From contig JAQGDQ010000191.1 in NCBI GenBank assembly GCA_030141605.1, positions 1-64,000 on the forward strand: a DNA stretch of 64,000 bases. The letters are read 5' to 3'. This DNA comes from Tubiluchus corallicola (Eukaryota; Priapulida; Priapulimorpha; Priapulimorphida; Tubiluchidae). Position numbers and translations under genes: made by a program. Under the pieces are notes generated by a model. That model did not search any database, had not been told where the DNA came from, and saw only the letters and a program-made list of their open reading frames with translations. Below, one piece after another: positions 8,741 through 36,216 of this stretch; the stretch's first letter is position 1; every line of letters begins with the position of its first letter.

Positions 8741-9411
8741 TTTGTGAAGTGCCTGTACTGATTTACTGTGTCTGTAAAATTGCTGTTCTAGTTCCCCCTT
8801 TTCAGAATAAAAAACAAAAATAGAAAACCCCCGATTGCCTTTTTGGGAAGGAAAGTCTTTCATCGTTAATTTTTTTATTTACCATGACCTGATAATTATT
8901 TTTCATTTTTAGGTACAAATTTCTATTACGTACATCCAGATTGAAGCGGAAAAAGCTGACAAATTTCCTTTGGTTTAAGTCACTGGAACATGTCGTACAA
9001 ACTGGGTGGTAGTCGTAAAGGTTTCCGCCACTGTTTTGGCGGTAGTTGATAAAAGTGTTTTTCGGAATATTTTATTTTATCGGATAGTGTTTAAATAAAG
9101 TTTAAAACATTACTTTAATTGTACTAGCTTTCTAGTTAATACAATAACATTATAATTACAGTGACATCCAGTGACAAAAATGGTACAGTTCAGAGTAACA
9201 TTTTTACACATACTTAGTAAAATAGACAAAGATACGACAGGACTTAAGGAAGGAATTAGAAGAGGAAAGAAAAAATGAGAAGAGCAGAAGGGAACAGAGG
9301 TGTTTTCAGTATAATTAGCCAATCTTTATAGGGGCTAACAAGTAAATATAGGGCGGAAAAATTTCCGTTACTTCATAACTGTGTTTTCTCTCCTGGTAAA
9401 CAGGTGTAGAT
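8741..9411 (+). other. 5' flank / probable 5' UTR intron of the ankyrin-cGLR gene
   Basis: No coding region. TTTTCTCTCCTGGTAAACAG at 9384-9403 is a credible 3' splice site 12 bases before the start codon, so the gene may have an upstream non-coding exon. An out-of-frame ATG at 9412 opens a 16-codon overlapping upstream ORF ending at 9462, which could dampen initiation at 9416. Confidence 0.45.
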
Positions 9412-9415
9412 ATGA

Positions 9416-12319
9416 ATGAGCAATCAACTAAAAATGGACAGAGAGGACAGCGAAGCAGATGACAGTGACACAGAAGATGAATTCAATGAAAAGAAAGAGC
9501 AAGGATGGACTGCACTTCACGAATCTGTTTATGAGAACGACGTTAGCGCAGTGCGCCATCTACTGGCAGAAGGACATTCTGTTGGAGGACAATCTGGCAT
9601 TCTGTCAAAGCGAACACCTCTCATGATAGCATCAGCCAAGGGGTATATGAGTATAGTGCAGTTGTTATTGGAGCATGAAAATAAACTTTCAAGTTGTGAA
9701 GAGAGACAAATAAACTGCAAGGATTATGATGGACGAACACCCTTACACCATGCAGCACAGCACGACTGTGCAATTGCAGTATTTTTATTAAACCATGGAG
9801 CACCGCTAGATGTTAAAGATAATTATGGTTATTCGCCCCTTCATCTTGCGGTTGAAAGTGGACACGTCGACATTGTTCACTTGTTACTAAATCGTGGAGC
9901 TCAAGTTGACTGCGCAAACAACGAAGGCGAAACACCTCTACACACGGCTGCTGAAGAAGGGCACGTTGACGTAGTCGAGATGCTACTGAAACACGGTGCG
10001 GCAGCTGACAGACGAACAAAACGGCAAGGATTCACACCGCTTCATAAAGCAGCTGGCAAAGGATATGATAAAATAGTCGAGATACTACTGGACAGTGGAA
10101 TACAAATTGACTGTGCAGATGATGGTGGAAATACTCCTCTCCATGATGCAGCTGATTTTCAACACGCTGATATAGTCAAGATGTTACTAGATCGTGGAGC
10201 ACAAATAAATGTTAGAAATACCGGTGGAAGTACCGCGTTACACCGGGCAGCAATAATGAACAGCCGTTGCGATATTGTCAAGTTGTTATTAGACCGGAGC
10301 AGTGGAGCTTTAGTTGAATGCCGTGACGACGACGGCAACACGGCTTTGCATCGTACAGCAACTTACAGTCTTTGTCCTGACATAGCAAAGGTGCTATTAG
10401 ATTTTAAAGCAACAATTGGATGCAGAAACAAAGACGGAGAGACGCCTTTACATTTAGCGTGTGCGTACGATCGCACAGAGCTGATCAGGTTTCTTGTGGA
10501 TGCTGGAGCTGATGTAGATGCCATCAATGATAAAGGTCAAATGCCTCTTCATCTTGCAGTTAGTTATTCTCGTTCACTCGACATTATTAAACTTCTGTTG
10601 AGCAAAACGAAAACTATAAACCAGACTGATGATTGTGGTATGACACCTTTGCACTACATTTACAATCGACCTACAGTTATTTTAAACATTGATGTGGTAA
10701 GGGATTTCATTCGTCTTGGAGCCAACACAGACATAGTCAGTAATGATGGTCAGACCATTAAAGACCAGCTAGTCGAACGTGGAAATTTTGGCAAAGACAA
10801 TAACAAAGTCGTCCGGCGAGTTATAGGTCAGCTTTATCAACATCAGTATTTTAAAACCTGCAAAACATTCTCAGTAGCGTCAGCTGATCAAGATGCGTTC
10901 AAATTTGACTGCATTAATTCACTCCTCGGCGGCAGAGATAATCATATAACCAACCTGCTGCTTGTTGGTAACTTAGTAGAACCGGAAGAGTGTGATAAAA
11001 TTAAAAACTCTGTTGATTCACTGATAAGGAATGTTTGCAGTAGGATCAAAGGGTTAGAACCAGAGCTTGAAGGTGAAGCTATGTTGATTGGAAGCAGCTC
11101 ATGTGGGATAAAGTGCTGGTTACCGGACGAATTCGATTACTTCTTTGTGTTAACAACATTGAGTGAAAAAGTTACAATTGAAGCAAACAAGGACGGATAT
11201 GCGAAAGTAAGAGTGAACGATGATTTGTGCAAAAGTATGAAAAACTATGTTAGCGACGGATATCTTCAAATCCAAATAAAAGATATGTTTGCTGACGTGC
11301 TCTGCAGAGCCATGTCTGAAGCTTACCAGTCGACAATCAATCAAAGATCTCAATCTGACACATCGCTTTCAGACTTTGAACTTTTCCCAGTGCAGGATTC
11401 CATAATAGAGTGGAACAAGGTTTGCACCACATTCAACGTAATTGTTCAAGGCTCCTTCTACAAACAGCTGAAAATATCTGTCGATGTCTCGCCAGCTTTA
11501 AGGGTATCTGGTGGACCGCCAGGAGCAATATTGTCACGTCTTTCTCAAATATCGAATTTGGAATATCATGTAGTGCCAAAACCGGCGGAAGACGCTAGCA
11601 TTCAAAAACTTTCAGAGGAGTGGACGACAACTTCGACGATAAGCACCAGTTCTCCTGAAAGCAAAGTCATTCAACTGACTTCCCAGCGTAGCAAAGACGT
11701 AATGATAATACTGAAAACTTTGATGAAAGAGTACGTGTACAACGTCAAGTTGCCAAAAGCCGTTGCCAACTCGTGGATGGAAGAGCAAAAGAAGCAGCTG
11801 GAGGAGAAGAAAGATCGAGAGTCGGAATCGGGAATAGATATGCCCTATAAGTTGTTTTTAATGGCGAAACGTTACCCAGGCGATATGATAGACTCCTATA
11901 CCATAAAGACGGCATTCCTTCAAGAACTCTGGAGAAGCGGTGAGCCAAAGGACGAAGCAGAAATTGAAGAAAGAGTGCAGAGCATACTAGGGTACATCTC
12001 GTCATGCTGCAGGAATCGTTACATGCCTCATTACTTACTTAATGATTTTAACATATTAGAAAGCTTGAATGATAAATTAATCCAAAGTCAACCGCTGCCA
12101 TTCCTCATGGAAAAATGTGCGGCTGCTATTAAGCAGCATATAACCACTGATGGAGTGCCTACACACAAGTGCTTGATGAGCATAGATGCAGACGATGTGT
12201 ACGCAAACATGGAGCTAGCCCGACGCGAGCGAGACATATTTTATTGGAGTGAAACAATTGCTAACAAAAAAATATGGCAGGAGCTAGAGAAAGGTTGGCA
12301 AGAAGAGTTCAGTGAGTGA
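9416..12319 (+). CDS. Ankyrin-repeat / Mab-21 (cGAS-like receptor) nucleotidyltransferase, 967 aa
   Basis: A single uninterrupted coding exon. Residues 1-30 are acidic. Twelve ankyrin repeats follow at about 32-437 (TPLHxAA...IVxLLL pattern, for example TPLHLACA at 343 and TPLHDAAD at 240). A linker leads to a Mab-21/cGAS-type nucleotidyltransferase domain at about 470-910. G559-S560 and E572-F573-D574 form the GS...[D/E]h[D/E] active-site motif with the same 13-residue G-to-E spacing as animal cGAS. D690 in LKISVDVSPAL is the third acidic residue. YHVVPKPAED (717-726) and SYTIKTAFLQELW (827-839) are typical of the family's C-terminal lobe. The Cys/His zinc thumb of vertebrate cGAS is not seen. 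Known cGLRs make cyclic or linear nucleotide second messengers after nucleic-acid sensing in the cytosol. Catalytic activity here is inferred from conserved residues only. The start is M1 because TGA immediately precedes it in frame; M7 is an alternative. Confidence 0.9.
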   Translation: MSNQLKMDREDSEADDSDTEDEFNEKKEQGWTALHESVYENDVSAVRHLLAEGHSVGGQSGILSKRTPLMIASAKGYMSIVQLLLEHENKLSSCEERQINCKDYDGRTPLHHAAQHDCAIAVFLLNHGAPLDVKDNYGYSPLHLAVESGHVDIVHLLLNRGAQVDCANNEGETPLHTAAEEGHVDVVEMLLKHGAAADRRTKRQGFTPLHKAAGKGYDKIVEILLDSGIQIDCADDGGNTPLHDAADFQHADIVKMLLDRGAQINVRNTGGSTALHRAAIMNSRCDIVKLLLDRSSGALVECRDDDGNTALHRTATYSLCPDIAKVLLDFKATIGCRNKDGETPLHLACAYDRTELIRFLVDAGADVDAINDKGQMPLHLAVSYSRSLDIIKLLLSKTKTINQTDDCGMTPLHYIYNRPTVILNIDVVRDFIRLGANTDIVSNDGQTIKDQLVERGNFGKDNNKVVRRVIGQLYQHQYFKTCKTFSVASADQDAFKFDCINSLLGGRDNHITNLLLVGNLVEPEECDKIKNSVDSLIRNVCSRIKGLEPELEGEAMLIGSSSCGIKCWLPDEFDYFFVLTTLSEKVTIEANKDGYAKVRVNDDLCKSMKNYVSDGYLQIQIKDMFADVLCRAMSEAYQSTINQRSQSDTSLSDFELFPVQDSIIEWNKVCTTFNVIVQGSFYKQLKISVDVSPALRVSGGPPGAILSRLSQISNLEYHVVPKPAEDASIQKLSEEWTTTSTISTSSPESKVIQLTSQRSKDVMIILKTLMKEYVYNVKLPKAVANSWMEEQKKQLEEKKDRESESGIDMPYKLFLMAKRYPGDMIDSYTIKTAFLQELWRSGEPKDEAEIEERVQSILGYISSCCRNRYMPHYLLNDFNILESLNDKLIQSQPLPFLMEKCAAAIKQHITTDGVPTHKCLMSIDADDVYANMELARRERDIFYWSETIANKKIWQELEKGWQEEFSE

Positions 12320-12474: not shown

Positions 12475-14170
12475 TAAGACACTCTATTAATGCCTCCTTG
12501 AGTCTATTGAAAACCAGAGATTTATTTTGATGAGAGGTGCTCAACAACTCTGGAGAAGTCGTGAGAGTCATAGGAGATTCATATAGAGTCATACTATGAG
12601 AGTCATGATTTTGGCATTAATAGCTGTGAAGTGGTTACAAAGAGTCAGTTGTCCCAAAACATGCATATATCAAATAAATGCAGTATGACTGAATCTTAGA
12701 AACTAAATGGCAAGAGAGTCCACAGACACTATTACAGTTTTCCCTTTCAAGGAAGTAGTGTGATCAGTTGCGGCTCATAGCTAAAATTACCGAGGGTGCT
12801 GCTTCACACAGACACTATTACAGTTTTCCCTTTCAAGGAAGTAGTGTGATCAGTTGCGGCTCATAGCTGAAATTACCGAGGGTGCTGCTTCACACAGACA
12901 CTATTATAGTTCTCTCTTTCAAGGAAGTAGTGCGATCAGTTTCGGCTCATAGCTAAAATTACTGAGGGTGCTGCTTCACACAGACACTATTATAGTTCTC
13001 TCTTTCAAGGAAGTAGGGCGATCAGTGGCGCCTCATAGCTAAAATTACCGAAGGTGCTGCTTCACACAGACACTATTATAGTTCTCTCTTTCAAGGAAGT
13101 AGTGCGATCAGTTTCGGCTCATAGCTAAAATTACTGAGGGTGCTGCTTCACACAGACACTATTATAGTTCTCTCTTTCAAGGAAGTAGTGCGATCAGTTT
13201 CGGCTCATAGCTAAAATTACTGAGGGTGCTGCTTCACACAGACACTATTATAGTTTTCTCTTTCAAGGAAGTAGTGTGATCAGTGGCGCCTCGTAGCTAA
13301 AATTACCGGGGGTGCTGCTTCAGAAATTTTTTAGCCAAAGTTGTTTAATACTGTGTAAAACGAAACAAACATATCAAATTTTAATGTTGCAATTGTAATT
13401 TTAAACAAACCAATATGTGAAAGTATATACGTAAACTTGATAAAATCCTAATCACAAAAAAGTATTTTTTCCACACTAATAGCCTAAATTGTTGCAGTTC
13501 AATCTTGATCCATTCACAGTAAGCACGTGACAACTGACAACAAACTGTGTGAGCGAGAGTACTTTTTCTACCTGGGATCAGACATGTGCGCATGACCGCA
13601 AACGCACAACTGTTACAGCCAAACACCTCGTTGCTGGAGCGCAATGTGCTGAGCTATGAAGCAAACACCACTGCCCTCACATGCTCTGGTTTTGTACAGG
13701 TATAAGGAAAGAACTAAAGAAAAGACTCGTTATAGTTGTGAATATTATCAATAATACTGAGTGAAAATATGCAAAGACACTGGTAAAGACATTGATCACA
13801 CTTGTTGCTTTAGAATAAGTTGCAGTGTAACATAAAACTTTGTTACGTCAATACAAATAATAATTCCTCTCTATAAACACATACGTTTATAAGTGCAAAT
13901 GCACTGCAAATGTAATATTCTCTGTGGACTCTCTTACCATTTAGTATCTAAGATTCATTCATACTGCATTTATTTGATGTATAGATTTTTTGGGACAACT
14001 GACTCTTTGTAACCACTTCAGCTATTAATGCCAAAATCATGACTCTCATAGTACGACTCTATATGAGTCTCATATGACTTTCATGACTTCTCTAGAGTTG
14101 TTGAGCACCTCTCAGCAAAATAAATCTCTGCTTTTCGATAGACTCAAGGAGGCAGTGATAGAGTGTCTTA
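12475..14170. mobile_element. Element with ~250-bp terminal inverted repeats
   Basis: 12475-12725 and 13925-14170 are inverted copies of each other. The left starts TAAGACACTCTATTAATGCC and the right ends GGCAGTGATAGAGTGTCTTA. Shared inner phrases include GAGGTGCTCAACAACTCT and GGCATTAATAGCTGTGAAG. TA at each end could be a target duplication, as in Tc1/mariner relatives. The interior holds an 86-bp minisatellite and a unit that is amplified in the right palindrome arm. No transposase is present. The right palindrome arm has only one end of this element (from about 31256). Confidence 0.7.
12720..13320. repeat. Minisatellite, ~86-bp unit, 7 copies
   Basis: CACAGACACTATTA followed by CTTTCAAGGAAGTAGTG, GGCTCATAGCTAAAATTAC and GAGGGTGCTGCTTC recurs seven times. 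The corresponding place in the right arm (32390-32487) has just over one unit. Confidence 0.92.
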
Positions 14171-14302: not shown

Positions 14303-14582
14303 TTGACCAGACGGTTTAGTCTAGTGGTAACGCGTCCACTTTCCGTCTGGGAGGTTGTGAGTTTGAACCAGCGGCCGGGTCATACCAAAGACTTTAAAAA
14401 TGGTACCCGCTGTTGCCCTGCCCGACGCGTAGTATTTAGGGTAAAAGTGGGGTAATAATAGTCTCTGTTGTGTAGTTGTAGGTTGTTATTTACAGTCGGC
14501 GATAATAGCTCTTTGAGCTAATGTTAATTGTTGACCCAAAAGCCGACTTTAAATAAAGATTATCATTATTATTATTAATAAG
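14303..14582 (+). mobile_element. tRNA-derived SINE (left arm)
   Basis: The head (about 14303-14382) has a box A, TTTAGTCTAGTGGTAACGCG, and a box B, GAGTTTGAACCAGC, with GACC/GGGTC able to pair as the acceptor. A ~150-bp body follows (GTAAAAGTGGGGTAATAATA, GTTGACCCAAAAGCCGAC) and a tail AAATAAAGATTATCATTATT. TAAGTT flanks it on both sides, a possible short target duplication. An inverted copy is at 30847-31126. Confidence 0.8.
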
Positions 14583-15008
14583 TTATATTTATTAATTACG
14601 TTGTTAAGATGAATACTCGGTAACTCATAGCTGTACGTTGTAATCATAGCACTTTTGAGAATTAATAAGTTATTTTTATTAATTATGTTGTTAAGATGAA
14701 TACTCGGTAACTCATGGCTGTATGTTGTAATCATAGCACTTTTGAGAATTAATAAGTTATTTTTATTAATTATGTTGTTAAGATGAATACTCGGTAACTC
14801 ATGGCTGTACGTTGTAATCATAGCACTTTTGAGAATTAATAAGTTATTTTTATTAATTATGTTGTTAAGATGAATACTCGGTAACTCATGGCTGTATGTT
14901 GTAATCATAGCACTTTTGAGAATTAATAAGTTATTTTTATTAATTATGTTGTTAAGATGAATACTCGGTAACTCATGGCTGTATGTTGTAATCATAGCAC
15001 TTTTGAGA
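14583..15008. repeat. 87-bp minisatellite, 5 copies (left arm)
   Basis: The period is exactly 87 bp: TAATCATAGCACTTTTGAGA recurs at 14641, 14728, 14815 and so on. Because 87 is a multiple of three, a repetitive open frame runs through on the minus strand. The right arm has about 14 copies of the same unit. Confidence 0.95.
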
Positions 15009-15130
15009 ATTTAAATTATTTACATAATAAGAAACTTGTGTTAAATGATTTTATTGAAATGTGACATTGAGTGAAGCCTTGTAACAGTAAAGAAACTTCA
15101 CAGTTTCACAAATGTTTTAGATGTCGCTAT

Positions 15131-17244: not shown

Positions 17245-19035
17245 TTAAGTATTTCTTGAGTGTTTTAACCTATGTTTCCTTAGGTAGCTTTGCCTAGCGA
17301 AATTAGCTCCACATAGACTGCATAAGTATGGCTTGATTCCAGTGTGAACCGTGATGTGTTCCTTTAAGTACCGTAGCTCGCTGAAGGCAACACCGCAATG
17401 CTGACACGAATGAGGTCGAGGCTGCCCCGTATGTTTCAATCTATGGCTCTTCAACGATGAAAGATTAGAGAACGAAGCTTCACACTGCGAACAAGAATAA
17501 GGTTTTTCTCCTGTGTGAGTCATTAAATGCCTTTTCAGTAGGTACGATCGAGTAAAACTTGCCCCGCACCACGCACACGTGTGCGGTCTCTCCCCGGTAT
17601 GACCCCTCAGATGTTGTTTTAAGCTACCGGGTTCGGTAAACGAAGCGTCGCACAGGTGACAGCCGTGCGGTCTTCCACCTTGGTGCCTCTTCAAGTGCCG
17701 CTGTAGTGTTCCTGACTGGGAAAAAGCTTTGCCACATAGCTCACATTTGTAAGGTTTTTCACCGCTGTGAGTCAACAGATGGCGCGTCAGCAAGCACTGC
17801 TGTCCAAAAGCCGCTCCGCAAAAATTGCAAAGATGAGGTTTGTCGCCCGAATGCGACAGCTGGTGTCGATTTAAGTTACCCGCACAGCTAAAAGTTGCAG
17901 CGCAGTGGGTGCAGATGTAAGGCTTCTGTTTTGAATGCGTTTCTATGTGCATTTTCAAGCTGCTCATATAATAACATGCATAGCCACACTGATCGCACTT
18001 GTAAAGCTTTTCAGTCTTGTGATTCATCAAATGTCTGCTTAAATTTCTGGAATTTTTGAAAGCGAGTTTGCAGTAGTCACACTTAAATGGCAGTGGTGCA
18101 GGGTGGACATTAGGTTTGGCACCATTTTTGTCCAGTGAAGACTCGCATTGACCACTGGCTTGACAGTTTTTGATTTTGCTAACATGAGAAGTAAGATGTT
18201 TGTTGTAATGACCCAACCTGGCAAACGAGGCAGTACACTGTGAACACTGAAAAGGTTTTTCATTCGAATGTTTAAGCAAATGCTGCTTCAAATGACTTGG
18301 CCATACGAATGCGGCGTCGCACTGAGTACATTTGTGAGGCTTTGTTCCAGAGTGTTCCATCAAATGCTTCTTCAAATAACTGCTGCTGGAAAAAGTGCCG
18401 CCGCACTTAACGCACGTGAATGGTTTCACGCCGGTATGTGTGAACAGATGGCGTTTCAAGTGACTCGGACTAGTAAAGGCACCTTCACAATGCTGACATT
18501 TATATGGCCGTCCCTGACTCGCAGATTTGATTAATGGCGTATCTCCTGCAGAGCTCAGAGATGCTTCACTTACTACAATGTGCTCTGAAGAATCGCGGCT
18601 GTTGTCACATTGTTCAACAGTGTCATTGTTTTTCACACATTGTTTAACAGTGTCATTGTTTTCCACAGAATAACAACCTACATTTGATTGGGAGTTAGTA
18701 ACATTTAAATCAAGCCTAGCACTTGCACTATTGGCAGCATCAGCAACTGTCGATTTTCTATTAATAAAGTTACCAAAACAAGACCCGTTTTTGGAATTGC
18801 CGTTTGCATCAGCACCATCTTTCGCTTCTGATTCAACTTTTACGACAACTGCATCTACATCAGTCTGAGCGACAATTTCGCTGGATGAACGAGGAAGTCT
18901 TTGTAGACCTTGTTCTTCTGACGTATCTGCTGGTTTCAGTATTTTAATGTCGTACATTTCGCTCCCGTGATGGGATGCTTCAACCGGCAAAGAAGGCGGC
19001 TCTGATTTTACTAATGGACTCTCATCTTCATCCAT
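17245..19035 (-). CDS. 14-finger C2H2 zinc-finger protein, left-arm copy, 596 aa
   Basis: Starts MDEDESPLVKSEPP. ATG follows a probable 5' UTR acceptor (CTTGCTTTGCAG, about 28 bases upstream). Residues 1-170 are acidic and low in structure, with two consensus SUMO motifs (V9-K10-S-E and V65-K66-V-E) and a repeated VKNNDTVKQC-type segment (two units). Fourteen C2H2 fingers follow, four then ten, separated by a ~30-residue linker (SKIKNCQASGQCESS...). Linkers are mostly TGEKP/SGEKP type, the DNA-binding consensus. It is inferred to be a nuclear transcription regulator; SUMO sites often go with repression in this class. No KRAB, SCAN or BTB is seen. It ends SRNT because one base makes TAA where the mirror copy reads TTA and continues three residues. 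It is divergently oriented from its twin across a ~6-kb gap. Confidence 0.9.
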   Translation of the reverse strand: MDEDESPLVKSEPPSLPVEASHHGSEMYDIKILKPADTSEEQGLQRLPRSSSEIVAQTDVDAVVVKVESEAKDGADANGNSKNGSCFGNFINRKSTVADAANSASARLDLNVTNSQSNVGCYSVENNDTVKQCVKNNDTVEQCDNSRDSSEHIVVSEASLSSAGDTPLIKSASQGRPYKCQHCEGAFTSPSHLKRHLFTHTGVKPFTCVKCGGTFSSSSYLKKHLMEHSGTKPHKCTQCDAAFVWPSHLKQHLLKHSNEKPFQCSQCTASFARLGHYNKHLTSHVSKIKNCQASGQCESSLDKNGAKPNVHPAPLPFKCDYCKLAFKNSRNLSRHLMNHKTEKLYKCDQCGYACYYMSSLKMHIETHSKQKPYICTHCAATFSCAGNLNRHQLSHSGDKPHLCNFCGAAFGQQCLLTRHLLTHSGEKPYKCELCGKAFSQSGTLQRHLKRHQGGRPHGCHLCDASFTEPGSLKQHLRGHTGERPHTCAWCGASFTRSYLLKRHLMTHTGEKPYSCSQCEASFSNLSSLKSHRLKHTGQPRPHSCQHCGVAFSELRYLKEHITVHTGIKPYLCSLCGANFARQSYLRKHRLKHSRNT

Positions 19036-19200
19036 CCTAGAATGTATTGAAAACTCTGCAAAGCAAGAAATGTAGTTAACTACTTTAATTTAACTGGATG
19101 TCAGACACTGTAATTACCTGTTGCATTAAATTGTCAAAACAATTTAAAACAATGTTCACACTGGTGTCATTTGCTGATAATTAAATGTCAAATTAAAACA

Positions 19201-24925: not shown

Positions 24926-25095
24926 TTTGCTGTTTTAATTTGACATTTAATTATCAGCAAATGACACCAGTGTGAACATTGTTTTAAATTGTTTTGACAA
25001 TTTAATGCAACAGGTAATTACAGTGTCTGACATCCAGTTAAATTAAAGTAGTTAACTACATTTCTTGCTTTGCAGAGTTTTCAATACATTCTAGG

Positions 25096-26925
25096 ATGGA
25101 TGAAGATGAGAGTCCATTAGTAAAATCAGAGCCGCCTTCTTTGCCGGTTGAAGCATCCCATCACGGGAGCGAAACGTACGACATTAAAATACTGAAACCA
25201 GCAGATTCGTCAGAAGAACAAGGTCTACAAAGACTTCCTCGTTCATCCAGTGAAATTGTCTCTCAGACTGATGTAGATGCAGTTGTCGTAAAAGTTGAAT
25301 CAGAAGCGAAAGATGGTGCTGATGCAAACGGCAATTCCAAAAACGGGTCTTGTTTTGGTAACTTTATTAATAGAAAATCGACAGTTGCTGATGCTGCCAA
25401 TAGTGCAAGTTCTAGGCTTGATTTAAATGTTACTAACTCCCAATCAAATGTAGGTTGTTATTCTGTGGAAAACAATGACACTGTTAAACAATGTGTGAAA
25501 AACAATGACACTGTTAAACAATGTGTGAAAAACAATGACACTGTTGAACAATGTGACAACAGCCGCGATTCTTCAGACCATGTTGTAGTAAGTGAAGCAT
25601 CTCTGAGCTCTGCAGGAGATACGCCATTAATCAAATCTGCGAGTCAGGGACGGCCATATAAATGTCAGCATTGTGAAGGTGCCTTTACTAGTCCGAGTCA
25701 CTTGAAACGCCATCTGTTCACACATACCGGCGTGAAACCATTCACGTGCGTTAAGTGCGGCGGCACTTTTTCCAGCAGCAGTTATTTGAAGAAGCATTTG
25801 ATGGAACACTCTGGAACAAAGCCTCACAAATGTACTCAGTGCGACGCCGCATTCGTATGGCCAAGTCATTTGAAGCAGCATTTGCTTAAACATTCGAATG
25901 AAAAACCTTTTCAGTGTTCACAGTGTACGGCCTCTTTTGCCAGGTTGGGTCATTACAACAAACATCTTACCTCTCATGTTAGCAAAATCAAAAACTGTCA
26001 AGCCAGTGGTCAATGCGAGTCTACACTGGACAAAAATGGTGCCGAACCTAATGTCCACCCTGCACCACTGCCATTTAAGTGTGACTACTGCAAACTCGCT
26101 TTCAAAAATTCCAGAAATTTAAGCAGACATTTGATGAATCATAAGACTGAAAAGCTTTACAAGTGTGATCAGTGTGGCTATGCATGCTATTATATGAGCA
26201 GCTTGAAAATGCACATAGAAACGCATTCAAAACAGAAGCCTTACATCTGCACCCACTGCGCTGCAACTTTTAGCTGTGCGGGTAACTTAAATCGACACCA
26301 GTTGTCGCATTCGGGCGACAAACCTCATCTTTGCAATTTTTGCGGAGCGGCTTTTGGACAGCAGTGCTTGCTGACGCGCCATCTGTTGACTCACAGCGGT
26401 GAAAAACCTTACAAATGTGAGCTATGTGGCAAAGCTTTTTCCCAGTCAGGAACACTACAGCGGCACTTGAAGAGGCACCAAGGTGGAAGACCGCACGGCT
26501 GTCACCTGTGCGACGCTTCGTTTACGGAACCCGGTAGCTTAAAACAACATCTGAGGGGTCACACCGGGGAGAGACCGCACACGTGTGCATGGTGCGGGGC
26601 AAGTTTTACTCGATCGTACCTACTGAAAAGGCATTTAATGACTCACACGGGAGAAAAACCTTATTCTTGTTCGCAGTGTGAAGCTTCGTTCTCTAATCTT
26701 TCATCGTTGAAGAGCCATAGATTGAAACATACGGGGCACCCTCGGCCTCATTCGTGTCAACATTGCGGTGCTGCCTTCAGCGAGCTACGATACTTAAAGG
26801 AACACATCACGGTTCACACTGGAATCAAGCCATACTTATGCAGTCTATGTGGAGCTAATTTTGCTAGGCAAAGCTACTTAAGGAAACATAGGTTAAAACA
26901 CTCAAGAAATACTTTACAAGTATAA
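25096..26925 (+). CDS. 14-finger C2H2 zinc-finger protein, right-arm copy, 609 aa
   Basis: Same organisation as the left-arm gene: acidic N-terminus with SUMO motifs at K10 and K66, then four plus ten C2H2 fingers (first C-Q-H-C near residue 185, last C-S-L-C near 580). It differs by one extra ten-residue VKNNDTVKQC unit, a three-residue C-terminal extension (LQV) and about ten substitutions (for example M/T27, E/D and I/V before the fingers, and V/A in finger 13). None of these falls at the predicted helix -1, 2, 3 or 6 contact positions, so both proteins should bind the same DNA. The start is the ATG after TTCTAGG, with a probable 5' UTR intron acceptor TTGCTTTGCAG just upstream. Both copies look intact and under constraint, or too young to have decayed. 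Confidence 0.92.
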   Translation: MDEDESPLVKSEPPSLPVEASHHGSETYDIKILKPADSSEEQGLQRLPRSSSEIVSQTDVDAVVVKVESEAKDGADANGNSKNGSCFGNFINRKSTVADAANSASSRLDLNVTNSQSNVGCYSVENNDTVKQCVKNNDTVKQCVKNNDTVEQCDNSRDSSDHVVVSEASLSSAGDTPLIKSASQGRPYKCQHCEGAFTSPSHLKRHLFTHTGVKPFTCVKCGGTFSSSSYLKKHLMEHSGTKPHKCTQCDAAFVWPSHLKQHLLKHSNEKPFQCSQCTASFARLGHYNKHLTSHVSKIKNCQASGQCESTLDKNGAEPNVHPAPLPFKCDYCKLAFKNSRNLSRHLMNHKTEKLYKCDQCGYACYYMSSLKMHIETHSKQKPYICTHCAATFSCAGNLNRHQLSHSGDKPHLCNFCGAAFGQQCLLTRHLLTHSGEKPYKCELCGKAFSQSGTLQRHLKRHQGGRPHGCHLCDASFTEPGSLKQHLRGHTGERPHTCAWCGASFTRSYLLKRHLMTHTGEKPYSCSQCEASFSNLSSLKSHRLKHTGHPRPHSCQHCGAAFSELRYLKEHITVHTGIKPYLCSLCGANFARQSYLRKHRLKHSRNTLQV

Positions 26926-29535: not shown

Positions 29536-29659
29536 CCTGGTAGCGACATCTAAAGAAAATTGTGAAGTTTCTTTACTGTTACAAGGCTTCACTCAATGTC
29601 ACATTTTAATAAAATCATTTAATACAAGTTTCTTATGTAAATAATTTTAATTCTCAAAA

Positions 29660-30847
29660 CTGCTATGATTACAACGTACAGCCATGAGTTACCGAGTATT
29701 CATCTTAACAACATAATTAATAAACATAACTTATTAATTCTCAAAAGTGCTATGATTACAACATACAGCCATGAGTTACCGAGTATTCATCTTAACATAA
29801 TTAATAAAAACAACTTATTAGTTCTCAAAAGTGGTATGATTACAACGTACAGCCATGAGTTACCGAGTATTCATCTTAACATAATTAATAAATATAACTT
29901 ATTAATTCTCAAAAGTGTTATGATTACAACGTACAGCCATGAGTTACCGAGTATTCATCTTAACAACATAATTAATAAACATAACTTATTAATTCTCAAA
30001 AGTGCCATGATTACAACGTACAGGCATGAGTTACCGAGTATTCATCTTAACAACATAATTAATAAACATAACTTATTAATTCTCAAAAGTGCTATGATTA
30101 CAACGTACAGCCATGAGTGACCGAGTATTCACCTTAACAACATAATTAATAAACATAACTTATTAATTCTCAAAAGTGCTATGATTACAACGTACAGCCA
30201 TGAGTTACCGAGTATTCACCTTAACAACATAATTAATAAACATAACTTATTAATTCTCAAAAGTGCTATGATTACAACGTACAGCCATGAGTTACCGAGT
30301 ATTCATCTTAACAACATAATTAACAAACATAACTTATTAATTCTCAAAAGTGCTATGATTACAACGTACAGCCATGAGTTACCGAGTATTCACCTTAACA
30401 ACATAATTAATAAACATAACTTATTAATTCTCAAAAGTGCTATGATTACAACGTACAGCCATGAGTTACCGAGTATTCACCTTAACAACATAATTAATAA
30501 ACATAACTTATTAATTCTCAAAAGTGCTATGATTACAATGTACAGCCATGAGTTACCGAGCATTCATCTTAACAACATGATAAAAACAACTTATTAGTTC
30601 TCAAAAGTGGTATGATTACAACGTACAGCCATGAGTTACCGAGTATTCATCTTAACATAATTAATAAATGTAACTTATTAATTCTCAAAAGTGTTATGAT
30701 TACAACGTACAGTCATACCGAGTATACATCTTAACAACATAATTAATAAACATAACTTATTAATTCTCGAAAGTGCTATGACTACAACGTACAGCCATGA
30801 GTTACCGAGTATTCATCTTAACAACACAATTAATAAACATAACTTAA
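29660..30847. repeat. 87-bp minisatellite, about 14 copies (right arm)
   Basis: AGTGCTATGATTACAACGTA followed by CAGCCATGAGTTACCGAG recurs about every 87 bp, with occasional shorter units lacking AAC. It is an expansion of the five-unit left-arm array. Long plus-strand frames through it are periodic artefacts. Confidence 0.95.
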
Positions 30848-31925: not shown

Positions 31926-32605
31926 TCTAAAGCAACAAGTGTGATCAATGTCTTTACATATTTTCACTCAGTATTATTGACTATAACGAGTCTTTTCTGT
32001 AGTTCTTTCCTTCTGTCTGTACGAAACCAGAGCATGTGAGGGTAGTACTGTTTGCTTCACAGCCCAGCACAGTACGCTCCAGCAACGTAGTGTTTGTGTG
32101 TTGTCTAAGCCCAGGTAGAAAAAGTACTGTCGCTCACACAGTTTGTTGTCAGTTGCCACGTGCTTACTGTCAATGGATCAAGATTGAACTGCAACAATTT
32201 AGGCTATTAGTGTGCAAAAAATGCTGTTTTGTTTATGATTTTATCAAGTTACGTATATACTTTCATATACACTTACGTATATTGGTTTGTTTAAAATTAC
32301 AATTGCAGCATTAAAATTTGATATGTTCGTTTCGTTTTACACAGCATTAAAACAACTTTGGCTAAAAAATTTCTGAAGCAGCACCCCCGGTAATTTTAGC
32401 TATGAGGCGCCACTGATCACACTACTTCCTTGAAAGAGAAAACTGTAATAGTGTCTGTGTGAAGCAGCATCCTCTGTAGTTTTAGCTATATATATATATT
32501 GGTAGGCCGTCGTCAAACGACGGATCCGGCCCCACAGACAGACACAAAATACAGAGAGATATTACAGTAGGAAATAAAATAAGTGAGTCATGAAAGTCCG
32601 TCGAG

Positions 32606-35600
32606 TCACTGCACATTATTCTTACGCCGACGCCTCTTTTTTTTGAGATCTTCTATTCGTAGATGCTCAAAGTTGATCACTGCTCTCTTGCAGAGCGCTC
32701 TCCACTGAGTTCTGTCACTCGCCAGGGTCTCGAAGTTTTCTGGTTGGATGTTGCATTGATTCAGGGTATCCTTCAGCTGGTCTTTGTAACGCTTAAAGGG
32801 CCTACCGACCCTCCTTGCCCCTACTGCCAACTCACCAAACAGGAGAGTCCGAGGAATACGGTCCTCACCCATCCGGGACACATGACCAGACCAGCGGAGC
32901 CGTGCCGCAAATATGTGGGATTCAATGCCCCAGGCATTACAGCGACCCAAGACTTCAGTGTTAGGCACTCTGTCCTGCCAGCGAATGCCAGCTATCCGAC
33001 GTAAACAGCGCATATGGAAACTGTCAAGCTTCTTGACCTGTTTGCGGTACAGTGTCCAGGTTTCGCAGTTGTAAAGTAGCACCGGTAGAATGGCTGCCTT
33101 GTAAACTGCCATCTTCGTTGCTAGGCGGACATCCCGGGTATTCCACAGTCTTCCTGACAGGCCCCCGAAGGTTGCTGCAGCCTTGCCAATTCTGGTGGTT
33201 ATATCACAATCACTAGAGCAATCATTTGTCACTGTGCCTCCCAGGTAACTGAACCGATCCACGACCTTTAGAGTTTCATCTCCGATCGTTATAGCAGGTG
33301 CTGTAGGAGTTGTACCAGGTCTAGGCTGCACTAAAACTTCTGTCTTCTTCACAGACACAGTCAGACCGAAACGGGTGGCTGATAAAGCGAAGTTGTCCAT
33401 CAAAAATTGTGCATCCTCCATGGAATGACTGGCAAGTGCACAGTCATCAGCATACAGCAGTTCTCTTATCAAGGTGTAACACACCATCGTTCGCGCCTTG
33501 AAGCGGCGCAGGTTGAATACGCCGCCATCGTAACGAAACCTGACCTCGACACCCCGATAGCACTCGTTGTAGGCATCGCGTATTACTGCAGCAATGACTA
33601 TTCCAAAAAGCAGTGGGGCTAGTACACATCCCTGCTTAACACCGTTGTTGACTGCAAACGGAGAGGATTCCTGGTGCCCATCCACAATACGAGCCTGCAT
33701 GCCATCATGAAAAGAGCGTATTATGTTGACAATTTTTGAGGGACATCCTGTCCGACACAGAAGTCTCCAAAGTCCCTCCCTGCTGACTGAATCAAACGCT
33801 TTTGTTAAATCCACGAATATCAAGTAGAGGTCCCGATGTTGCTCCCTACACTTTTCTTGCAACTGCCGCACAGCGAAGATCATGTCAACAGTACCACGGT
33901 TTGCCCTGTATCCACACTGGCTTTCTGGGTGGAATTGCTCAGCGAGAGAACTAATGCGCCGTATAATTACTTGAGCCAGAATCTTTCCAGCAATACTCAA
34001 CAGCGATATTCCCCTGTGGTTGTTGCAATCTGCGCGATCGCCTTTCCGCTTGTATAGATGGATGATCGTAGCATCTTTGAAGTCCTGCGGCACAGTCTCA
34101 GCCTCCCAAATGGTATTGAAAAGCTTGAAAAGCCTTTCCACAAGAAGCGGACCACCATACTTGAAGATTTCAGGGCTAATGCCATCTGCACCAGGGGCTT
34201 TTCCACATTTCATAGCCTTGATCGCAGCTTTCACCTCTTCCAACTGAATCGGCACAGCCAGTTCCTCCATTGTTGGTTGTTGCGGCACGTTAATGATGAC
34301 ATCATTGTCGATGATAGAAGGATGTTTCCAAATCTGCTCGAAATGTTCAGCCCATCTCTGGACAATAGCAGTTGGTTCCGTGAAAAGCGTGTTACCATCT
34401 GTTGACAAAACAGCCATGGATCCATTGAAACTAGGACCATGTGCAGTCTTCAGCTCTTGATAGAAGGCACGAGTATCATGCCGGTCGGCAGCATCCTGAA
34501 GTCTTATGGCTCGATCGACCCACCAAGCATCTTTCATTTTTCTAATCCTCGCCTGTGCAACAGACCTCGCTTGATGGTAGCTGTCTTTCTTTGCTTGGCA
34601 ATTTTTATCATTCACCCAGTCCAGATGTTTCTCGTGCAGATTGGATAGTATGCCATGAATCTCCTGATCGTTGTGGTCAAACCAGTCGTTTTTGTCCCTA
34701 CGACGTTTCCCAAGTGCTGCTGCAGCACTTTCATATGTAGTGGTTTTCAAAAGTTCCCACTCTTCCTCTACATTGCCTGCTATGGTGTCCAGCATCTCAC
34801 TCTGTGCTTGGAATTGCGTGTATATCTTCTGCTCCAACAACATACGATGTGCGGGCAGCTTCAGCTTCGATAAGTCAAGTCGTGGTGCTCTTGCAGACTT
34901 TGCGCGAACCTTTGGGGGAACTTGTAGGGCTGTCTTCACCTTGACCAGCCGGTGGTCAGACCAGGCAGTGGTGCAACGAACCGCTCTAGTGAGGTGCACA
35001 TCACGTCGGTCCCTCTGCCGCACAATCACATAGTCCAAAACATGCCAATGTTTTGATCTGGCATGCATCCAGGTTGTTTTGAAGGCATCCTTCTGCTGAA
35101 ACAATGTGTTTGTGATCACAAGCCTGTGGGCAGCACAGAGACTCAGGAGCAATGTGCCATTCGAATTTTCAGCGCCGATGCCATGATGGCCAATCACATT
35201 CTCCCAGGCAGCAGAGTTTCGTCCTACGCGTGCGTTAAAGTCCCCCAGAAGAAGGATCTTGTCACCTGAGGGGATGGTTGTGATGGTCCTGGACAGCAGA
35301 TCATAGAATTCCTCTTTAGCCACATCCGGGTAAGACATCGTCGGGGCATATACACTGAGTAACGTTGCAAAATGACCATTTGAGAGCCGGACTCGCATTG
35401 TCATAAGCCTTTCAGTGATACCTTTTGGAAGACTGACCAGGTGTTGCATAAGCTTTGTTCGCACAGCAAAGCCGACTCCTGCTTGACGTGGTTGCTCCTG
35501 TGGCCTTCCAATCCAAAAGAAGGTGTAACCTGCCCCATCTTCTGACAGTTGGGACTCTTCCTCAAGACGCGTTTCACTGAGCGCTGCAAAGTCCACACCT

Positions 35601-35720
35601 TGTTCATTGAGAACCCTAGCCACGATTGCCGTTCTTCTCTCAATAGACTGTTCACTATCGATCAGTGTACGGACATTCCATGCTCCAAAAGTGTAACAGT
35701 ATTTTCGTGTTTTTCGACCG
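32606..35720 (-). CDS. LINE endonuclease-reverse transcriptase ORF
   Basis: No stop for more than 1000 codons. Counting from the GTG at 35623: SETRL (16-20), LGDFNARVG (126-134) and SDHR (222-225) mark an AP-endonuclease-like domain. FVDLTKAFD (603-611), GVKQGCVLAPLLF (661-673) and LLYADDCALASH (722-733) mark reverse transcriptase with the YADD active site. The C-terminus has RLRWSGHVSRM and GARRVGRP, common in LINEs often mislabelled as craniofacial development protein 2. The frame stays open upstream to at least 35720 and includes the endonuclease start YTFGAWNVRTL, but no in-frame ATG is seen, so the true N-terminus is unresolved. The product would nick DNA and copy its own RNA in the nucleus. 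The intact frame suggests recent activity. Clade (RTE-like or other) is not assigned. Confidence 0.88.
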
Positions 35721-36216
35721 CAAGATTTGAGTAACCAGCTGACAGCGGCTTGCCAGCAGGTTGAAGAGGGACAAGCTTCTTTAGGTCACCTTTTCCAGAC
35801 CCTTCCCCGAATTGGGGGGAGCTGGCTCTCCGTGAAAACGGCAGCTCCGACGCTCCAGCAGGACCGAACACTGCAGTTGTCCCGGGTCTACAGTGAACGA
35901 CCATCACACTGGTGCCGCCTACGTGTAAGTTTGCTGCTAAGGGCTCCCAGCAATACTCTTTGCCTGCCCCCACCGCCGCACACTCATCGCCGCAGGACTG
36001 GAAGTTTTTGATTGGTTGACTGTGGGACAACCTGCACAGATATGAGAAAGGTGGGTTTGTGCAGCGCCCACCCCACTCTCTCCTTCCGGCACGACATAAT
36101 AGGCAGGTCCCAAATTGAGCACATGTCCATCACGAACCGGAGCGCAGCTGGCCAGCCTGAGGAACTCGATGAAAGTGAGAACCAGCCTGGATTGCCGGTT
36201 GCCAGCAGTGGCCGGG

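Follow-up and report, generated by a model that had tools for sequence, protein, structure and literature searches.

The ankyrin-Mab-21 gene

We analysed a window of 64,000 nucleotides from the priapulid Tubiluchus corallicola (GenBank assembly GCA_030141605.1, contig JAQGDQ010000191.1, positions 1 to 64,000 of the forward strand). Positions 9416..12319 (+) hold an intact open frame of 967 codons, whose product joins twelve ankyrin repeats to an enzyme part of the Mab-21/cGAS fold family. This architecture had been claimed in an earlier reading of the letters alone (the original prediction), and motif count and Pfam both agree with it. Twelve [TSM]-[APV]-L-[HM] motifs, with starts spanning residues 32 to 410, give the several consecutive repeats of an ankyrin repeat protein. 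The profile search proposed as a check returned strong ankyrin matches (Ank_2, 4.9e-91; Ank, 1.5e-82), and both Mab-21_C (1.1e-7, 32.3 bits) and Mab-21 (PF03281; 1.4e-5, 25.7 bits) lie above the cut-off of 24.1.

In-frame TAG (9407-9409) and TGA (9413-9415) codons are located directly 5' of the frame. Hence, the coding frame starts at 9416 or later and its 5' end is complete. A pyrimidine-rich stretch ending in AG shortly before the frame suggests an intron in the 5' untranslated region. The features of the gene are listed in Table 1.

Table 1. Features of the ankyrin-Mab-21 gene, in window coordinates.
Feature	Position	Strand	Basis or remark
Complete single-exon coding frame, ankyrin-Mab-21 protein	9416..12319	+	967 aa plus stop
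Possible pyrimidine-rich tract and 3' splice acceptor	9380..9403	+	sequence read by eye
Array of 12 ankyrin repeats	9503..10750	+	residues ~30-445; Pfam and repeat list, ends are our reading
GS motif of the nucleotidyltransferase, G559-S560	11090..11095	+	sequence, paralogue alignment, PDB profile
Pfam Mab-21 nucleotidyltransferase domain match	11108..11620	+	residues 565-735
E572-F-D574, first two putative metal-binding acids	11129..11137	+	sequence, paralogue alignment, PDB profile
D690, third putative metal-binding acid, in ISVDVSPAL	11483..11485	+	sequence, paralogue alignment, PDB profile
Pfam Mab-21_C helical domain match	11885..12082	+	residues 824-889

Copies of the gene that are identical over 4,404 bases, flanks included, occur on contigs C27, C1935 and C2101. 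These three copies could be taken as signs of a decaying gene or an assembly artefact, as could the in-frame stops of relatives from a recent branch of the family (e.g. on C1720, C2251 and C2284), which are probably decaying copies themselves. The frame in the window, however, is intact across all 967 codons, and identical copies fit redundant contigs of one locus, so that we regard decay or artefact as extremely improbable. The last base of C27 corresponds to window base 1. Probed along the window, C27 is identical at three places up to position ~20,600, resembles the window around 30,000 and has no match at the probes farther on. C2101 agrees with the window at three probes that extend almost to its end. 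The copies on C27 and C2101 thus look like assembly redundancy. A recent amplification of the gene, as three identical copies might indicate, was set aside, since the probes near the gene fit redundant contigs.

Catalytic site and fold family

The residues named in the original prediction, G559-S560, E572/D574 and D690, are present, and the distance from the motif Gly to the Glu is 13 residues, as stated there and equal to that of the cGAS chain in the PDB alignment. In the Mab-21_C match, Y828 and K831 are conserved and align to the SYHVKTA stretch of cGAS. A profile built from 27 family members matched 42 different PDB sequences with an E of 0.1 or less. cGAS (7.5e-15) and cGLR1 (1.9e-14) ranked first, in both cases across the nucleotidyltransferase core and the C-terminal helix bundle; Mab-21-like 1 (3.3e-9) matched more weakly, as did a Mab-21 domain-containing protein (5.7e-6). 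The family stretches LVGSS..K..lPDEfD, isvD and SY.iKtA align to LVGSFYEKVKISAPNEFD, ISVD and SYHVKTA of the cGAS chain 7lz3, and the same three stretches also align to the corresponding parts of cGLR1. Going by the cGAS and cGLR1 alignments only, E572, D574 and D690 would converge in space; a single-sequence AlphaFold model of the enzyme domain had a mean predicted local distance difference test (pLDDT) score of 34.

The window protein shares with cGAS the Gly-to-Glu spacing and the SY..KT stretch; the best-matching chain named cGAS has a Val before GS, where the family has Val or Ile. The window protein differs from cGAS by its low identity, by the twelve ankyrin repeats at the N-terminus and by the missing pattern of a zinc thumb, a feature of vertebrate-type cGAS. 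A zinc-thumb-like pattern, H-x4..7-CC-x4..8-C, was matched in none of 47 frames of the family, the window's included, as the original prediction had it for the window protein.

The window protein carries several of the features by which cGAS-like receptors (cGLRs) are recognized in the accessible part of Li et al. 2023 (PMC9980059), where the class is defined and 3,020 enzymes from 583 species are counted. Mab-21 and Mab-21_C are both over the cut-off, and GS, [DE]x[DE] and the third [DE] are in place. The cGLR superfamily of Culbertson and Levin 2023 (PMC10732462) is described in the accessible text as a clade plus Pfam PF03281; the PF03281 part applies to the window protein as well.

A large family in one genome

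The 343.5-Mb assembly, comprising 2,344 contigs, was searched with the enzyme part of the window protein. This gave 72 matches, partly fragments or pieces of one gene, from which 47 reading frames were fetched. Clustering at 95% in the enzyme domain left 42 non-redundant frames, the window's included. Fragments on C1307, C1480, C2025, C1235, C579, C676, C2272, C547 and C1996 and one on C2100 were left out, and a match on C2284 (L059) was fetched but lies outside the analysed set. The window gene is therefore one of a large ankyrin-cGLR family in its genome, with dozens of genes.

Among the 42 frames S560, D574 and D690 are invariant, and E572 (Asp in the remaining frame) and G559 are kept in 41 each. 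Conservation extends to Y828, K760 and K767 (41 each) and to E748 (40). Because the catalytic letters are retained in 41-42 of 42 non-redundant paralogues, their presence in the window protein is not due to chance. Identities to the window protein are 25-42% (27-member alignment). Of 27 enzyme domains from the family, 20 matched PF03281 with an E of 0.01 or less.

Ten full-length paralogues were scanned with Pfam. Mab-21_C was found in seven and Mab-21 in four, and ankyrins precede the enzyme in all ten. The N-terminal place of the ankyrins, which had been called unusual, is instead ordinary for this family; ankyrin-cGLRs have moreover already been published (PMC9980059, accessible part). By the simple motif count ankyrins went undetected in four of the 47 frames (L024, L032, L036, L037). 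Pfam does detect them in L032, and L036 and L037 have adjacent ankyrin matches in other or interrupted frames.

A tree was calculated from 40 of the 42 frames (without L049 and L050) and a Mab21L-like protein, all from this genome. The window gene clusters with L004 and L007 (support 95/88) on long branches. Searches with the paralogue alignment returned 156 pattern stretches in viral_contigs and 95 in genome_contigs, with no confirmed relatives in either set.

Related enzymes and STING genes

The best Mab-21 match of the genome (L053; 163.4 bits) is a 375-codon frame that we take to be a Mab21L-like gene. It has the Mab-21 Pfam domains in common with the window protein, as do Mab21L1/2-like and shrimp Mab21 proteins. 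Inspected by eye, its GS/E-x-D place reads NRYDGLEVLSPTEFEV and its third-Asp place YVVQITPAF: GS and the third acid are missing, acids are present at the E-x-D place, and ankyrins are absent from the 375-codon frame. In these respects it is unlike the window protein.

This contrast bears on an alternative in which the window protein is a non-catalytic adaptor that binds a kinase or another partner, its catalytic residues serving nucleotide binding or structure. The shrimp proteins LvMab21-1/2/3 offer a precedent, as they are reported, in the accessible part of PMC12928593, to bind IKKepsilon and to make no cyclic GMP-AMP (cGAMP) in response to nucleic acid. In the family described here, however, the three acids are retained in 41-42 of 42 paralogues, whereas both GS and the third Asp are missing from this genome's Mab21L-like gene. 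We therefore consider a mere adaptor function quite unlikely.

A conventional multi-exon cGLR is located on C134:53500-63200 (L060, L052), with similar exons on C865 (L051). Its GSYFQNLKVEKADEFD and VSVDF stretches leave the catalytic residues complete, and the exons seen encode no ankyrins. A PDB search with L051, stops written as X, gave no matches.

The search for STING and for ankyrin-Mab-21 paralogues, also proposed as a check, found both. Matches to the STING ligand domain number 22 on 10 contigs, some perhaps pieces of one gene or from redundant contigs. Those in L013 retain the stretches RNYGRNSVY and EFSTPL, which presumably resemble the cyclic-dinucleotide contacts of human STING. 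On C235 (L058), C414, C2160, C1844 and C2192 (L015) the matches are paired closely on one strand, which suggests genes with two tandem STING ligand domains.

Rapid amino-acid change on the ankyrin arm in a sister branch

A recent branch of the family comprises 14 genes on 14 contigs; L050, which has a stop in the enzyme part, was left out throughout. The ratio of nonsynonymous to synonymous substitution rates (dN/dS) was calculated for the 81 of 91 possible pairs that had more than 100 codons aligned in both halves, and medians were taken over pairs with a synonymous rate (dS) of 0.02-1.5. The N-terminal/ankyrin half had a median dN/dS of 1.47 and the enzyme half one of 0.80; median dS was 0.09 for each.

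For a finer view, L034 (more diverged) and L037 (N-terminal part cut by a stop) were omitted, and changes in the remaining 12 genes were counted by parsimony on a FastTree tree. Repeats R2-R7 had a dN/dS of 2.00 (1.43-2.94), the enzyme part 0.87 (0.66-1.16). Within the repeat, nonsynonymous changes were highest at positions 13, 5, 3, 10 and 14. Positions 2, 3, 5, 13, 14 and 33 are those randomised in engineered ankyrin binders, and we take them as the binding positions. Of the 322 nonsynonymous changes across the 28 counted positions these six carry 175, a sum reached by 96 of 376,740 six-position sets; positions 2 and 33 add only 13 and 7 changes, and position 10 (32 changes) lies outside the set. 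With 175 nonsynonymous versus 8 synonymous changes, the binding positions have a dN/dS of 5.09 (2.55-26.7), compared with 1.04 (0.66-1.74) at the other ankyrin positions counted, position 10 excluded. A Fisher test of 175:8 versus 115:38, treating changes as independent, gave 4.4e-8. Tree-free counts over all 66 pairs (binding 4.22, other ankyrin 1.28, enzyme 0.86) and over six disjoint pairs (4.41, 1.16 and 0.80, respectively), with position 10 placed among the others, agree with this. Consequently, the signal is independent of the tree.

By comparison, the GS..EFD block shows 22 nonsynonymous and 121 synonymous differences and the third-Asp block 0 and 22, summed over pairs. The closest partner of a gene differs between repeats, and across one repeat L035 and L040 are codon-identical, so that repeat shuffling in this branch is likely. 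One sister branch, which is not the window gene's own, thus has amino-acid change piled on the ankyrin binding positions. The ankyrin arm may be a variable sensor and the enzyme a constant output.

The same comparison was made in other groups of close paralogues, with position 10 included among the binding positions. For L047/L048/L025 the ratio was 1.08 at binding positions and 0.81 at the remaining ankyrin positions, and synonymous change was high too (proportion of synonymous differences, pS, 0.236). In L020/L027 the order was reversed (0.48 versus 1.30), L008/L009 showed no change (n=7 binding codons), and L016/L022 gave 1.48 versus 0.33 on 7 codons only. None of these four groups yielded anything comparable, so that the strong signal is that of the 12-gene branch.

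Other elements in the window

Just 3' of the gene, at 12721-13322, are tandem direct repeats with a period of 86 bases, and similar copies occur near 32102-32489. Two C2H2 zinc-finger frames, at 17245-19089 (-) and 25042-26925 (+), lie inverted about 6 kb apart and are nearly identical by eye. A long frame with endonuclease and reverse-transcriptase domains at 32606-35785 (-) is apparently a retrotransposon lacking long terminal repeats (non-LTR). Short frames at 14549-15010 (-), 29641-30120 (+) and 30121-30597 (+) all weakly match one and the same part of Pfam glycogen synthase, two below the cut-off and the third just above it (27.1 vs 27).

Comparison with known systems

The accessible part of Li et al. 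2023 (PMC9980059) describes ankyrin or TPR fusions of cGLRs, with ankyrin members in the coral Stylophora pistillata, and large radiations within one genome (more than 200 cGLRs in some bivalves) alongside several STING genes. The family described here shares with published cGLRs the ankyrin fusion, the large radiation in one genome and the several STING genes, together with GS, E-x-D and the third Asp. A further parallel comes from fungi. For NACHT-ankyrin NLRs of Podospora, the accessible part of Dyrka et al. 2014 (PMC4986451) reports repeat shuffling and finds the concave face and hairpin of the ankyrins to be under positive selection. The 12-gene branch resembles them in the amino-acid change piled on the ankyrin face and in the likely repeat shuffling, whereas in all else these are fungal NLRs and not cGAS-like enzymes.

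Ankyrin is nowhere mentioned in the accessible text of Culbertson and Levin 2023 (PMC10732462), and in PMC13319465 the terms cGLR and ankyrin are confined to the reference list. We found no account of cGLRs diversifying on the ankyrin face in the literature searched, which is weak evidence as most subscription papers lie outside its coverage. The ankyrin-cGLR architecture as such is already known; what is added here is a variant motif, a large family and receptor-like diversification of the ankyrin face in one branch. As to the original interpretation, membership in the Mab-21/cGAS family, conserved catalytic residues, the lack of a zinc-thumb pattern and STING in the genome all stand, but the unusual position of the ankyrins does not.

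Proposed mechanism

Judging from these sequence comparisons, it is reasonably probable that the window gene encodes an immune alarm enzyme, an ankyrin-armed cGLR with a working nucleotidyltransferase, a product read by STING and the ankyrins as binding module. E572, D574 and D690 would hold two metal ions, and nucleoside triphosphates would be joined into a (probably cyclic) dinucleotide, which STING proteins of the same animal would then read. The N-terminal ankyrin solenoid would be the part that binds a partner or ligand, most likely a protein, and the bound ligand would release or assemble the enzyme. In this respect we infer that the ankyrins of the window protein act like those of the sister branch.

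Several observations speak against this proposal, in addition to the shrimp proteins discussed above. The published cGLR motif, h[QT]GS[X8-20][DE]h[DE]h[X50-90]h[DE]h, is matched by none of the 42 paralogues. This motif calls for Gln or Thr in front of GS and for a third acid 50-90 residues farther on (PMC9980059, accessible part), whereas all 42 have Val or Ile at this place (I558 in the window protein) and the window protein has a spacing of 113 residues; a relaxed motif (any residue before GS, X 50-130) is matched by 39 of the 42. In three of the ten full-length relatives (L030, L032 and L049) Pfam detects neither Mab-21 nor Mab-21_C at 1e-3, but they nonetheless align letter-wise with the ankyrin-cGLR family. 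In the 12-gene branch, the poorly aligned stretch before R2, outside the counted positions, also has a dN/dS of 2.07 (1.36-3.34), and the enzyme part is weakly constrained (0.87). The signal at the binding positions is clear in only one of five close-paralogue groups, and for the window gene, whose synonymous sites are saturated, the genome offers no paralogue close enough for this comparison.

The trigger might also be different. According to the accessible part of Li et al. 2023 (PMC9980059), the known activating ligands of cGLRs are nucleic acids, and some active cGLRs have unknown ligands. The back face of the nucleotidyltransferase could sense nucleic acid, as in cGAS and Drosophila cGLR1, with the ankyrins localising or oligomerising the protein via a host partner. 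Ankyrins do often bind host partners. The net charge of the enzyme part, admittedly a crude measure, is nevertheless -18 in the window protein, with a median of -9 among the 42 paralogues, and the fastest ankyrin positions of the 12-gene branch are the binding positions, for which a fixed host partner is not a ready explanation. Nucleic-acid sensing by this route is thus unlikely.

Returning to the ankyrin-armed receptor, we tentatively suggest as a possible extension that the ankyrin-cGLRs form a diversifying immune repertoire, in which a variable, recombining concave face would meet pathogen proteins and a constant enzyme would signal to STING by a cyclic nucleotide. Such a face would be comparable to the repeats of fungal and plant NLRs or to engineered ankyrin binders. 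Fixed catalytic residues together with a solenoid that diversifies on its binding face, in one branch, point to protein sensing by cGAS-type enzymes, and the sister-branch result names the ankyrin face and the paralogues on which this could be tested. If the proposal is true, cGAS-type enzymes would sense proteins via a hypervariable arm, besides nucleic acids.
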